A DNA stretch of 23,386 nt from a virus. Under the pieces are notes generated by a model. It saw only the letters and a program-made list of their open reading frames with translations, was not told the DNA's origin and made no database searches. Both the position numbers and the translations under genes were made by a program. Position 1 is the stretch's first letter. Each line of letters opens with the position of its first letter. The stretch covers positions 1 through 23,386 of the IMG/VR virus record IMGVR_UViG_3300033388_001731; one strand, 5' to 3'. Below, piece after piece: positions 4,626 through 14,771 of this stretch.

Positions 4626-4940
4626 TTAGCTATTGTTTTTTAGTTCGTGGTTTTTAGAAATTGTATCAACAACAAACTTATAGTCTGGATCACTATCAAT
4701 ATATTCTTTAGCTTTAGTGTACCCATGCATTATAGTATGATATTGTACTGGAAGACCGTTCTCCTCCATAAATCTTTTTATATAAGAAAGTCTTATTGGT
4801 CTTTCTTTTGCCAGAAAGTAAAGCATTTGTCTTGCTTCTACTATTTCTCTTTTTCTACTTTTAGAAAACATTTCCCCTAAAGTAAGGTGAAATTTTTCTG
4901 CTATTGCATCTGCATACGCGTCAAATATATCTTTTTTCAT
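4626..4940 (-). CDS. Stand-alone DnaA domain IV-like DNA-binding protein
   Basis: The 104-residue protein aligns by eye with the C-terminal DNA-binding domain of DnaA and with nothing else of DnaA. FSKSRKREIVEARQMLYFLA (25-44) matches the basic-loop and helix region (LLSKRRSR..ARPRQMAMAL in E. coli). YHTIMHGYTKAKEY (67-80) matches the DHTTVLHACRKIEQ signature helix, with H68 and T69 conserved. The AAA+ ATPase domain is absent, so it should bind DnaA-box-like sites without ATP-driven oligomerisation. It may mark the phage origin, recruit the replicase or block host DnaA. It lies in the replication operon, 2 bp from each neighbour. Confidence 0.75.
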   Translation of the reverse strand: MKKDIFDAYADAIAEKFHLTLGEMFSKSRKREIVEARQMLYFLAKERPIRLSYIKRFMEENGLPVQYHTIMHGYTKAKEYIDSDPDYKFVVDTISKNHELKNNS

Positions 4941-10779: not shown

Positions 10780-11130
10780 TTAATAATTAACAAGTGATTT
10801 CATGAATTTCCAGTCCGACAATCTCCAGTCAAACAATAGATTATTGGCCACCATTCGGACCGCTTCAAAGCTCATATCTGGCTTCTTATCCTTGATACAG
10901 TCCAGAAGGATTTCATAATATACATTTGACACATTCCACTCCGCTTCATCTTTCATCATAGATAATGAAGTTTTAAAGCCCGTTTTCGGTTGGTCTTTGT
11001 AGGTTAATTTAATTCGTTCAAGTTCGTTAAAAACTTTTGTTTGATACAATAGAACAAAATCAGAAACAGACCCGCAAACGTAATTTTTTCGCTGCTTATC
11101 TGTAATGGTGATAATAGGTTTTTTTATCAT
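10780..11130 (-). CDS. Hypothetical protein, first gene of the left arm, 116 aa
   Basis: Not recognised. As the first leftward gene it would be expressed earliest if the arm reads from the centre. It has a strand-rich start (MIKKPIITITDKQRKNYVCG) followed by helices (KVFNELERIKLTY), and W-containing C-terminal helices (LLFDWRLSDWKFMKSLV). The helical C-terminal half with positively charged patches could suit a small regulator, but there is no clear helix-turn-helix. The terminator-like hairpin at 10742-10764 follows it. Confidence 0.55.
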   Translation of the reverse strand: MIKKPIITITDKQRKNYVCGSVSDFVLLYQTKVFNELERIKLTYKDQPKTGFKTSLSMMKDEAEWNVSNVYYEILLDCIKDKKPDMSFEAVRMVANNLLFDWRLSDWKFMKSLVNY

Positions 11131-11167
11131 GTTTATTTATTTAATTAATATTTGTAATGCAATTATA

Positions 11168-11175
11168 CAAAATAA
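11168..11175 (-). promoter_or_regulatory. Candidate leftward promoter -7 box (TTATTTTG)
   Basis: The minus strand reads TTATTTTG, one base off TAnnTTTG, 38 bp upstream of the ATG at 11130. The same octamer occurs at 8959-8966, upstream of the 127-aa gene. The surroundings are extremely AT-rich, so chance matches are likely. Confidence 0.3.
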
Positions 11176-11283
11176 TATTAATATAAATGCAAGAAAAGTA
11201 TAATAATTTTATAAAAATAAGCTCATGTTAATAAATAAATTAATATTGTTAATAACTATTTAATAATCAATAAATTACACTGA

Positions 11284-11580
11284 CTTTGTCGGTCGGTTTT
11301 GTTTGTGTTCGGTCGTGTTCGCTCTGGGGTAAAGGGGAAGCTCCGAACGTGTGCAGCTCCCCAGACGGGGGAAGGAGGACGGGAAAGGACGGGACGCGGT
11401 CCAGCATATGGAGACCAAACAAGGCCACCAGCAGCCACCACCAGACGACCAGCAGCAGACCAACGACAGGCCAACGGGTCAAAAGTAAAAGCCAAAACAA
11501 CCAGCCAAAAAAAAACAAATCACAACCCCCCACCCCAAAAAAAAAGCGTTTTTCTGACGGCACGTGTGCGCGCATAACGT
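11284..11580 (+). other. Compositionally extreme non-coding block between the two arms
   Basis: This stretch is GC-rich inside an AT-rich genome and is sharply partitioned. Positions 11284-11330 contain no A and are G/T-rich. Positions 11331-11400 are G-rich, with GGACGGGA repeated around 11377-11394. Positions 11411-11548 contain only three T residues and are C/A-rich. TCTGGGG (11323-11329) pairs with CCCCAGA (11359-11365). Frames crossing it on both strands give low-complexity, unlikely proteins. The adjoining 11131-11283 is plain AT-rich sequence with no gene. Role unknown: origin, packaging site, structured RNA or Rho-binding RNA are all possible. Confidence 0.5.
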
Positions 11581-11620
11581 AGTAGTACCCTCAACCCCTA
11601 ATTATCTAACAAAAATTTAT

Positions 11621-11628
11621 TATCTTTA
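11621..11628 (+). promoter_or_regulatory. Candidate rightward promoter -7 box (TATCTTTA)
   Basis: The box matches TAnnTTTG at seven of eight positions and is 23 bp from the ATG at 11644, close to the spacing seen at 14785 and 23325. The preceding TTTATTA resembles the upstream part of the other right-arm boxes. Confidence 0.45.
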
Positions 11629-11643
11629 CAAAAAAAAGAAATC

Positions 11644-11877
11644 ATGGCATACGAAAAAAGAATATCACCAGGCAGTAATATTTCTGATATGGTAGACGGT
11701 CTATATGTAAAGGACGGTCGTTTAATAAATGCAAGACCTGACGGTATGAGTGGAATACAACAAGCGTCTATGTATAGATCACAAATGAAAAAACAATACA
11801 AGATAGATTGTATAGCAGACGGTATTGAAAGAGCAAAGATGAGAATGGACGGTGATAAAAATATTTACGAACTATAA
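11644..11877 (+). CDS. Hypothetical protein, first gene of the right arm, 77 aa
   Basis: Not recognised. This small, mildly basic protein begins MAYEKRISPGSNISDMVDGL and contains KDGRLINARPDGMSGIQQAS (23-42), a plausible conserved loop. The rest is helical (SQMKKQYKIDCIADGIERAK). It is a single-gene transcription unit: it has its own promoter-like box at 11621 and a strong terminator at 11907-11939. Being isolated between two control regions, it could be regulatory or a separately expressed virion component. Confidence 0.55.
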   Translation: MAYEKRISPGSNISDMVDGLYVKDGRLINARPDGMSGIQQASMYRSQMKKQYKIDCIADGIERAKMRMDGDKNIYEL

Positions 11878-11906
11878 GACTTCCCCGTTGTTTTAGTTAG
11901 TGAAAG

Positions 11907-11939
11907 TAGGGCGATCAAAAAGATTGTCCTATTTTTTTT
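11907..11939 (+). terminator. Intrinsic terminator of the 77-aa gene
   Basis: A 10-bp stem, TAGGGCGATC (11907-11916) and GATTGTCCTA (11922-11931), with two G-U wobbles and an AAAAA loop is followed by eight T residues (11932-11939). This is a textbook Rho-independent terminator. Confidence 0.85.
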
Positions 11940-11944
11940 ACTAT

Positions 11945-11984
11945 ATGTCGCGTTTATGTCGCGTTTATGTCGCGTTTATGTCGC
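11945..11984 (+). repeat. Tandem 11-bp repeats (iteron-like), 3.6 copies
   Basis: The unit ATGTCGCGTTT repeats exactly at 11945, 11956 and 11967, with a partial ATGTCGC at 11978-11984. A related TATGTCGTA occurs at 12052-12060 and its reverse complement at 12150-12158. The 11-bp period is one helical turn, so bound proteins would line up on one face. Plausible roles are replication iterons or operators for the chaperonin operon. Confidence 0.65.
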
Positions 11985-12076
11985 TTCTAAAACTTTAGGT
12001 AACTTGACTTAACTTATTAATTTACAATATATTATATAAAAACTATGTTATTATGTCGTACTTAATTAGTAAAAAG

Positions 12077-12117
12077 TAAATAAAAAAATATATATTATAT
12101 AAATAAAAAAATATATA
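12077..12117 (+). repeat. AT-only 18-bp direct repeats (possible unwinding element)
   Basis: The 18-mer with TAAAT, seven A residues and TATATA occurs exactly at 12077-12094 and 12100-12117, in a stretch with almost no G or C. It lies between the two copies of the TATGTCGTA motif. Low duplex stability fits an origin unwinding element, but AT-rich promoter DNA is an alternative. The rest of 11985-12180 holds no gene. Confidence 0.5.
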
Positions 12118-12180
12118 AAGAGCCATAGAAATTCAAGATAAACTGGAATTACGACATACGCTTCATTATATTTATTTTGT

Positions 12181-12214: not shown

Positions 12215-13804
12215 ATGACTTACATTCCAAAGACCTTGAGTTTTGATGATGAAGGTAGATCAAAATTAATCACAGGCATAACATCAATATCTAAAACAGT
12301 AAAGAGTACATTAGGGCCATTAGGTAAAACAGTATTGTTAGAATCTCCTGAGCATACATCAGGTATGACAATAACTAAAGATGGGGTTACAGTAGCTCGT
12401 TCTATATTTCTAAATGATCCTATTGAAAACCTTGCTGTTCAAATGATGAAGGGTGCAGCAGATAGAACTGCTAATTCAGCTGGTGATGGTACAACAACTG
12501 CTATAGTATTGACAGAAGCAATTGTCATGGCAGGTCAAGAGTTTATTAAACCTGAGCATAATACCACAGAGATTATTAGACATATAAATAAATTAACTCA
12601 AGATGTTATAAGTGGAGTAAAAAAGAAATCAAGAAAGATTACTAAAGATCGTTTATTAGATGTTGCTTGTATTTCAGCAAACAATGACAAGTCTATTGGT
12701 AATATAATAGCTGATGCTTATGACAAGGTTGGTATAAATGGAATAGTGACTGTTGAAAGATCTAAAAGTTCTTCAACATATGCAGAGGTTACAAACGGAT
12801 TAAAAATAGAAAGGGGTTATTCGTCAAACTTATTTATTAATAATCAAAAGAAAGACGAGTGTATACTTGAAGATGTTAAGATTTTAGTATGTGATGCTTC
12901 TATAGAAAGTATATTGCAAATAGAAAATGTTTTAAAGCCAGTAATAAATAACGGTGACAAGTTATTAATTATAGCTCCATGTTCAACTAACGTGATTAAT
13001 ACGTTAGCAGCTAACGTAGTTCGTAATGGATTAAAGTTTTGCAATATAGCCCCACCATCATTTGGATACAAAACCCATGAACTAATGCAAGATATAGCAT
13101 TAGCAGTAGGAGCTAAATACTTTAGTGAAAAAACTGGAGACGACTTAAGTCTTATTATGCCAAAAGATTTAGGTTATGCAGATAAAATAATTTGTAACAA
13201 TGAAAGTACCATTGTTATTAAAGAAGATAATAATACTGAAGAACTACAAATTAGAATAGAAGAATTAAAAGAAGCCAGAGATTCAGTAGAAAAAAATGTA
13301 GACAGAAAGTTTATCAATGAAAGAATAGCAAGTTTAGCTGGATCTATTGGCTGTATATATGTTGGAGGTAATAGTGATATAGAGCAAAAAGAAAAGTATG
13401 ATAGAGTAGATGACTCTGTATGTGCAGTTAGATCAGCATTAGAAGAAGGTATAGTTGCTGGTGGAGGTATCTCATTATTTCGCGCATCTTTACTTTTAGA
13501 CAAACACAAAAGTAAAGATGAAAATGCTGAGGTAGCTTCATTAATTTTAAAGACAGCATTAAGGGCACCTATTAAACAAATCATAGATAATGGAGGAAAG
13601 GATTTTGATAAAATAATTAATCATATATTTGATAAACCATACAATACGGGTTATGATTTAAAGAATGATTGTTTTGGTGATATGTTTAAGATGGGTGTAA
13701 TAGATCCATTAAAAGTAACAAAGAACGCATTAATAAATGCAGTTAGTGTTGCAACAACAATATTAAGCACTAATGCTATTGTAACTAACGTAAGAGTAGA
13801 ATAA
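12215..13804 (+). CDS. groEL: Phage-encoded chaperonin GroEL (Cpn60)
   Basis: The 529-residue protein matches GroEL from end to end (E. coli 548). Signatures include TLGPLGKT (32-39), TKDGVTVA (54-61), NSAGDGTTTA (87-96, with the ATP-binding D91 equivalent to E. coli D87), RGYSSNLFINN (200-210), the apical-domain stretch LLIIAPCSTNV, and VDDSVCAVRSALEEGIVAGGG (398-418, with D399 or D400 equivalent to the catalytic D398). The C-terminal GGM repeats of bacterial GroEL are absent; it ends IVTNVRVE. Key residues are intact, so it should be an active ATP-driven folding chamber, probably for phage virion proteins. groES follows two small ORFs downstream. Confidence 0.97.
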   Translation: MTYIPKTLSFDDEGRSKLITGITSISKTVKSTLGPLGKTVLLESPEHTSGMTITKDGVTVARSIFLNDPIENLAVQMMKGAADRTANSAGDGTTTAIVLTEAIVMAGQEFIKPEHNTTEIIRHINKLTQDVISGVKKKSRKITKDRLLDVACISANNDKSIGNIIADAYDKVGINGIVTVERSKSSSTYAEVTNGLKIERGYSSNLFINNQKKDECILEDVKILVCDASIESILQIENVLKPVINNGDKLLIIAPCSTNVINTLAANVVRNGLKFCNIAPPSFGYKTHELMQDIALAVGAKYFSEKTGDDLSLIMPKDLGYADKIICNNESTIVIKEDNNTEELQIRIEELKEARDSVEKNVDRKFINERIASLAGSIGCIYVGGNSDIEQKEKYDRVDDSVCAVRSALEEGIVAGGGISLFRASLLLDKHKSKDENAEVASLILKTALRAPIKQIIDNGGKDFDKIINHIFDKPYNTGYDLKNDCFGDMFKMGVIDPLKVTKNALINAVSVATTILSTNAIVTNVRVE

Positions 13805-14107: not shown

Positions 14108-14365
14108 ATGATAGCAATAGGAAAGAATGTTATAATACAACCAATAGAAGAAGAGTTAAAAACACAGTCTGGGCTTTTACTAACTGCGGCTGATGTAGGA
14201 GAGTTTAGATATAAAAAAGGTAAAGTAATAAAACAAGGAACAGATGTTCAAGCGATCAAAGCAAACGACATTATCTATTATGACAAGTCTGCTGGCTTCA
14301 GCCTTCTTATCAATAATACTTCTTACACTATTATTACTGAGAGAGATATCGTTGTTGTTTTATAA
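14108..14365 (+). CDS. groES: Phage-encoded co-chaperonin GroES (Cpn10), short form
   Basis: The 85-residue protein fits GroES: an N-terminal strand IAIGKNVIIQPIEEE, a mobile-loop region with SGLLLT at 21-26 (E. coli GGIVLT), then KGKVIKQG, then KANDIIYYDKSAGF (51-64, E. coli KVGDIVIFNDGYGV) and the closing TIITERDIVVVL. Between KVIKQG and the KANDII strand, about nine residues are missing relative to E. coli GroES. That segment is the roof beta-hairpin, also absent in phage T4 gp31. It would cap the phage GroEL ring or the host one. The 3' end overlaps the minus-strand regulator gene by 32 bp. Confidence 0.92.
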   Translation: MIAIGKNVIIQPIEEELKTQSGLLLTAADVGEFRYKKGKVIKQGTDVQAIKANDIIYYDKSAGFSLLINNTSYTIITERDIVVVL

Positions 14366-14771
14366 ATTCATTAAGTTTCTTTATAGAATTTCTGTAAAGC
14401 TTGTCAGTATAAGAAGCATCTTTTCTAAATAAAGGATTTAATTGAGCTGTTTCAGATATTTCTTCCCCATTTAATTTACGATATATTGTTCTGGCTATAG
14501 TTTTGCCTTTGTGAGACAATTCATATAATGTAGTATGCTTTCCATATCCTTTTCTCCAAACCTGAATATACTTATCTCTAAGTAAATTATCAAACCTTTT
14601 CTCATTCCATGACATAAGCTCTTCAAATTCCTTGAATTTTGTTTTATTAAAGTAGTCTTCACTGTATAAAAAGAGTATCATATCTATATCAGGAGTGCCA
14701 ATATTGTATTTGGCCTTAACCCAATAGCGAATAACTCTCCAATACTTGAGGTAATCGTGGGAATATTTCAT
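14334..14771 (-). CDS. Winged-helix DNA-binding protein (candidate regulator), minus strand
   Basis: This 145-residue protein is the only clear minus-strand gene in the right arm. The region LMSWNEKRFDNLLRDKYIQVWRK (52-74) followed by GKHTTLYELSHKGKTIARTIYRKLNG (77-102) fits a MarR-like winged helix: a recognition helix, a wing with Y/K residues, then the long C-terminal helix. The N-terminus has a dimer-like helix, DYLKYWRVIRYWVKAKYN. It is convergent with groES and divergent from the gene at 14807, with only 35 bp between the two start codons and a TATCTTTG promoter box inside that gap. I infer a transcription regulator of the right arm, possibly autoregulated. Confidence 0.6.
   Translation of the reverse strand: MKYSHDYLKYWRVIRYWVKAKYNIGTPDIDMILFLYSEDYFNKTKFKEFEELMSWNEKRFDNLLRDKYIQVWRKGYGKHTTLYELSHKGKTIARTIYRKLNGEEISETAQLNPLFRKDASYTDKLYRNSIKKLNEFIKQQRYLSQ

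Follow-up and report, generated by a model that had tools for sequence, protein, structure and literature searches.

The element and its surroundings

The window analysed here is a stretch of 23,386 bases of viral DNA with a GC content of about 31%. A block of unusual composition lies in it between a leftward gene at 10780-11130 and a rightward gene for a 77-amino-acid protein at 11644-11877, which is followed by groEL at 12215-13804 and by a probable groES at 14108-14365, the latter named from its sequence only. A sequence-only reading of this DNA had placed the block at 11284-11580 and called it GC-rich and strand-asymmetric. That description holds, with 50% GC at 11251-11550, and the conserved parts span about 11226 to 11628, wider than the coordinates first given. 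The two compositional runs that had been pointed out are also exact. The A-free run at 11284-11330 (47 nt: 22 T, 17 G, 8 C) is the longest in the window, against 30 nt elsewhere, and the 138 nt at 11411-11548 contain 65 A, 48 C, 22 G and just three T; a maximal stretch holding no more than three T residues starts at 11410 and measures 139 nt, where the rest of the window reaches 48 nt. Simulating the whole window 300 times with a first-order Markov model gave maxima of 42 nt without A and 61 nt with up to three T, and both runs are far outside chance. The A-free run is the box-bearing part of the element described below, and the low-T run is its linker plus A-box.

Relatives were collected by way of groEL (80 loci) and the 77-aa protein (53 loci), from collections that may omit records very near the window, and an iterated profile was built from 11481-11640. 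This profile gave one match per locus in 124 loci (78 non-redundant), at the same position with respect to the 77-aa gene or groEL, so that the conservation at the arm junction envisaged in the sequence-only reading is indeed found. In small searches the profile also matched Elemovirus MT497098 (E 2e-6), a Flavobacterium phage in culture that has retained the element's right half, and the circular 60.8-kb genome MW202828 (E 8e-6). An assembly artefact is excluded because independent contigs and isolates carry the element. No Rfam family matched anywhere in the window at gathering score, and literature searches found no description of such an element. The block is non-coding, neither an artefact nor a gene, and constitutes a previously undescribed non-coding DNA element.

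The carriers are best explained as a family of lytic Bacteroidota-type phages. The IMG/VR relatives are metagenomic, and we infer Bacteroidota hosts from the type of promoter and from the element-bearing Flavobacterium phage. A search of 84,980 genomes for prophages and hosts informs on no host, because the sole match was a phage-sized contig of 61.6 kb in a Pseudomonadales bin, probably a binning error; this contig carries a DnaA domain IV gene. For the phage groEL and the probable groES, the best relative among annotated phage records (MW202828) shows 57% identity. One structural protein of Elemovirus MT497098 has the C-terminal domain of the crAss muzzle (PF25729), suggesting a connection with crAss-like phages.

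Conserved parts of the block

The left flank contains the lowest-GC 120-mer of the window (11136-11255, 10.8% GC), a candidate strand-opening region that is also the region of the leftward promoter. Across the family, the locus-wide GC minimum falls in this flank in 10 of 77 cases, against 2.8 expected. Two DnaA-box-like 9-mers, TGTTAATAA on the + strand (reverse TTATTAACA), lie here in the same orientation and 21 bp apart, at 11226-11234 and 11247-11255. The consensus TTATYAACA occurs 26 times in the left flanks of the family, against 1.2 expected, but in only 14 of the 78 members, a count to be read with the proviso that the host's own box sequence may differ. The sites have one orientation in nearly all cases, and they are 21-22 bp apart in every member of the window's clade.

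To the right follow the partly palindromic motif 1, AATAATCAATAAATTACA at 11262-11279 (family type TGATnnTCAnnnnnTTACA), and a bipartite box, all on the + strand. The first, -35-like half of the box is motif 2a (TTTTGTTTG, 11297-11305); exactly 13 bp further on comes motif 2b, TCG-N4-GGGG-TAAA at 11319-11333, with TCG at 11319-11321, GGGGTAAA at 11326-11333 and a putative transcription start just after. The syntax of the family is the palindrome and then TTTTGTTTR-N13-TCG-N4-GG-TAA at fixed spacing: the distance from TTTTGTTTR to TCG was 13 bp in 44 cases, and any other spacing occurred in 1-12 cases each, in motifs that had been spotted by eye in the same sequences that were used for counting. 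A matrix for the box finds one site per genome, in the block only and always on the same strand; ten outside matches occurred in 1.03 Mb, and two of these lie in blocks with long linkers. Motif 1 is either 22-23 bp (15 cases) or 33-34 bp (11 cases) from the box, distances that are one helical turn apart. The fixed spacing and the helical phasing are the strongest evidence on the nature of the element, and point to duplex DNA bound by protein rather than to the single-strand function proposed in the sequence-only reading.

The 17 bp from TTTTG to TCG resemble a promoter spacer. The -7 consensus of the Bacteroidota host sigma factor is TAnnTTTG (PMC7366714), and a comparison of the box with the sigma-ABfr promoter found the -33-like TTTG but no TAnnTTTG, with TCG-N4-GG instead. 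Because the host -7 element is absent, a phage-modified or alternative polymerase would be needed at the box. Two phage systems were considered and rejected. The 3' half of the box resembles the start sequences of T3 and T7, and no PF00940 polymerase was found in 20 genomes, a weak result since control genomes were also negative. A hairpin promoter of the N4 type was set aside as well; the one domain in the Flavobacterium phage's giant virion protein is DUF3293, and a polymerase domain is absent.

Directly after GGGGTAAA comes a predicted hairpin, GGGGAAGCT...AGCTCCCC at 11334-11362 on the + strand, and here the sequence-only reading was right to look for covariation, since the pairing is kept through sequence changes in the family. 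Across 28 divergent members, with anchors chosen blind to pairing, the two arms of a hairpin pair better with each other than with arms swapped between members (z -3.6 to -4.5, p <= 3.5e-4, with RNA or DNA energies); earlier, hand-picked anchors had given z -7.1. Of the tests made here, this one alone was redone with blinded anchors. Moving the windows by 40-120 nt gave nothing significant in the direction of hairpin pairing, and compensatory change is present at the predicted place. The evidence comes from the relatives, because in the window alone neither segment folds better than its shuffles (z -0.27 and -0.20). The own-versus-swapped comparison does not separate an RNA from a DNA hairpin, and by G-U pairs the + strand folds better, though not significantly (p 0.12). 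The stem TCTGGGG/CCCCAGA noticed earlier is a different pairing; it is perfect in the window (11323-11329 with 11359-11365) but is common only to the two closest relatives.

The hairpin overlaps a zone of G clusters (11326-11400, + strand) of the type that initiates R-loops. Such clusters occur on the + strand in 40 of 78 members, on the other strand in 13-14 and in about 1% of control tiles. By the QmRLFS rules, the same 40 members and the + strand of the window have an initiation zone, and so does the window's other strand. The elongation zone (at least 100 nt with at least 40% G) is found in 9 of 78 members; the window reaches 35% and fails. Next comes a low-T linker of low complexity (11411-11480, + strand), which is fast evolving and often consists of clade-specific short repeats. 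Its letters are C/A, G/A or G/T according to clade, and T stays low (median 20%, against 33% in the loci), arguing that the strand asymmetry is conserved rather than the letter pair. The repeats of the linker were also considered as iterons, and 39 of 78 members gave p<0.05, but a much clearer array lies upstream of groEL.

Further to the right lies the A-box, AAAAGCCAAAACAACCAGCCAAAAAA with its AAAAGCCAAAA box (11487-11512, + strand), among the most conserved parts of the profile. A C run follows at 11526-11536 (+ strand), with a G run nearby in other clades; pairing of either run with the G clusters, judged by eye, was inconsistent across clades and was dropped. In the family the run is succeeded by tandem GTATAAC sites and then by a promoter. 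In the window, GCATAACGTAGTAGTACCCTCAACC lies between the C run and the promoter, and tandem CGTATAAC/GTATAACCC-like sites plus CCCTCAACC occupy 11571-11597 (+ strand). The -7-like element of the rightward promoter, TATCTTTA at 11621-11628 on the + strand, resembles the consensus TAnnTTTG (PMC7366714) and stands 16 nt before the ATG of the 77-aa gene.

Iterons and replication proteins

The 77-aa gene (11644-11877, + strand) is kept in 53 relatives, and its product matches no Pfam or PHROG family. Terminator-like hairpins follow it in 11 of 20 relatives; the window's own putative intrinsic terminator, at about 11905-11936, was read by eye and contains G-U pairs. Beyond it, upstream of groEL and 310 bp to the right of the block, is an iteron element (11944-12159), in which TATGTCGCGTT is repeated 3.7 times with an 11-bp period, with further copies at 12053 (+) and 12152 (-, inverted). 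The array surrounds an AT-rich stretch that includes a second GC minimum (11.7%, at 12001). In 34 of 39 loci the corresponding region is richer in repeats than shuffled sequence; 719 direct repeat pairs were counted where shuffling gave 93, with a spacing peak at 11 bp. The unit differs by clade and the position of the array is conserved. Helically spaced direct repeats beside an AT-rich stretch were thus found at 11944-12159, not in the block. An iteron array beside an AT minimum is how an origin core classically looks, and for this reason the iteron element is a likelier seat of the origin proper than the block. The block, the DnaA-box-like sites and the iterons together would make a control locus of about 1 kb.

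Candidate initiators, recognized from sequence, are encoded in the same genome. One is a stand-alone protein of 104 aa (4626-4940, - strand) consisting of DnaA domain IV, the DnaA-box-binding fold (PF08299, E 1e-8), and another is a primase/helicase-type replicative protein (79-2466, - strand) with BT4734-like_N, PriCT_1 (just below cut-off) and DUF5906 domains. The DnaA domain IV protein was found in 19 of 20 full-length relatives and in 5 of 5 more (24 of 25), and several genomes have a second, longer copy. Its AlphaFold2 model has a pLDDT of 90, and the best PDB matches of the model are the DnaA-DNA complexes 3pvp and 1j1v (TM-score 0.78/0.85, Foldseek E 1e-3 to 3e-3). The phage protein shares with domain IV of E. 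coli DnaA (1j1v) the fold, an H-x-T motif and the arginines that we take to be equivalent, in numbering and role, to R399 and R407; in the alignment the R407 equivalent is invariant in 30 phage proteins, and the R399 equivalent is mostly R or K. Unlike E. coli DnaA, it stands alone at about 100 aa, without an AAA+ domain. It is a probable trans partner of the locus.

A proposed composite origin and its alternatives

An origin was among the functions first proposed for the block, and an origin or control site remains the best reading. We put at about one half the probability that the block forms the non-coding middle of a cis-acting locus for the control of replication and transcription. Its role is best read, by analogy, as the promoter and DnaA-box side of a composite origin that works like pR/ori of phage lambda, where replication starts at iterons and needs pR transcription through the origin region for efficiency (PMC3985674). 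The phage DnaA domain IV protein and an iteron-binding initiator would assemble on the locus, and a factor at motif 1 would help RNA polymerase, or a phage-modified form of it, at the TTTTGTTTR-N13-TCG box. Transcription would then run rightward by way of the hairpin, the G clusters and the low-T linker towards the iterons, and would open the duplex or supply a primer there. The linker would be kept free of self-complementary sequence so that the strand stays open.

We favour the composite origin because the element is present in single copy at the same position in 124 loci, the Flavobacterium phage and a circular genome, and because the fixed-spacing box, the phasing at 22-23 or 33-34 bp and the compensatory hairpin go together with G clusters biased to one strand. 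It is favoured also because the DnaA-box-like sites are so enriched (26 against 1.2) in phages that nearly all encode the DnaA domain IV protein (19 of 20), because iterons with an 11-bp peak lie beside the AT minimum in 34 of 39 loci, and because lambda provides a precedent (PMC3985674). The block is flanked by leftward and rightward promoters, with the DnaA-box-like sites and the lowest GC on the left. Several findings weigh against the composite origin. The DnaA-box-like sites are confined to those 14 of 78 members, the full R-loop model applies to 9 of 78 and not to the window, and DnaA domain IV was not matched in Elemovirus, which retains the element's right half. It could also be that the iterons act as the origin by themselves, or that they are a groEL operator. 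Cumulative GC skew, which had been suggested as a check, carries no replication signal; it tracks the gene strand in five genomes, for example at the counter-oriented gene 14334-14771, and was discarded as origin evidence.

In a bolder version, a stand-alone DnaA domain IV would mark the site, a phage-specific promoter with a start hairpin would drive a low-T transcript or strand, deliberately left unpaired, through it, and fast-changing iterons on the far side would load the primase-helicase. That these features define a new class of phage origin is a speculative proposal and on balance unlikely. Very little is known of origins and early/late switch regions in environmental Bacteroidota phages. 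The element has a sharp and testable syntax common to at least 78 phages, including an isolate with a culturable Flavobacterium host, and it would also reveal phages whose share of DnaA is limited to the box-binding part.

The likeness to the lambda origin extends to the iteron array, the AT-rich stretch, the link to DnaA and a promoter that would transcribe through the origin region (PMC3985674). In lambda, however, the iterons are embedded in gene O, and O and P are expressed from the promoter, whereas here the region is non-coding, is split by the 77-aa gene and has in addition a hairpin, a low-complexity low-T linker and a DnaA domain IV of the phage's own. Iteron plasmid origins such as P1 oriR and pSC101 also combine tandem DnaA boxes, an AT-rich opening region and iterons in one locus. 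The present locus resembles them in its tandem DnaA-box-like sites, candidate opening region and iterons, but these sites and the iterons are about 700 bp apart, its iteron units vary by clade and no Rep protein was identified as an iteron binder. In ColE1 RNA II and the T7 primary origin, a promoter immediately precedes a structured or G-rich transcript that could serve as primer for DNA synthesis. A predicted promoter directly upstream of a structured, G-rich stretch can be read from the sequence here as well, although the R-loop model is only partly satisfied and, unlike the case of T7, no single-subunit RNA polymerase was found (the control was also negative).

The rival that deserves most attention is that the block controls transcription only, a possibility that we consider real if somewhat doubtful. 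A phage-specific, activator-dependent promoter (motif 1 plus box) would then produce a short non-coding RNA or a 310-nt structured leader of the 77-aa gene, beside divergent early and right-arm promoters, and the iterons would be the origin by themselves, or a groEL operator. An oriented, single-copy box of fixed spacing, immediately followed by a hairpin and set in helical phase with a palindrome, is indeed typical of a promoter plus activator, and a rightward gene with terminator-like hairpins behind it follows. A 310-nt leader would be superfluous, however, given the host-type -7 promoter just before the ATG of the 77-aa gene, and the block contains no terminator that would end an RNA. The structured RNA suggested in the sequence-only reading retains a hairpin with conserved pairing but lacks an Rfam match, and the DnaA-box-like sites and the DnaA domain IV protein would go unexplained. 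A Rho-loaded, unstructured RNA (a rut site) in the C/A-rich part, also suggested at first, would suit the window itself, where C outnumbers G in the low-T segment (48 against 22) and the segment's fold does not beat shuffles; such an RNA is very improbable, as the C-richness is confined to the window's clade and the same place is G/A- or G/T-rich in others.

We regard a fast-evolving gene for a small protein as equally remote, in agreement with the sequence-only reading. Open frames of 92-102 aa exist on both strands, and the closest three genomes have a weak codon-position bias (13/18/31), but stops are rare in every frame of T-poor DNA, most codon changes are non-synonymous and the bias is absent from a second clade; most other members have no open frame across the block, and block lengths show no constraint modulo 3. 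A packaging or terminal site (cos/pac), of double- or single-stranded DNA, is improbable too, even though 5 of 31 near-full-length contigs end less than 500 bp from the block where 0.5 would be expected. The far ends of four of these contigs lie elsewhere, the ends of other full-length contigs are scattered, and in MW202828 about 12 kb separate the element from the terminase gene. The fifth contig has both its ends inside the element and wraps round by about 97 nt, up to a G run. This is a break of the assembly in a circular map, the end repeat having been missed at the homopolymer.
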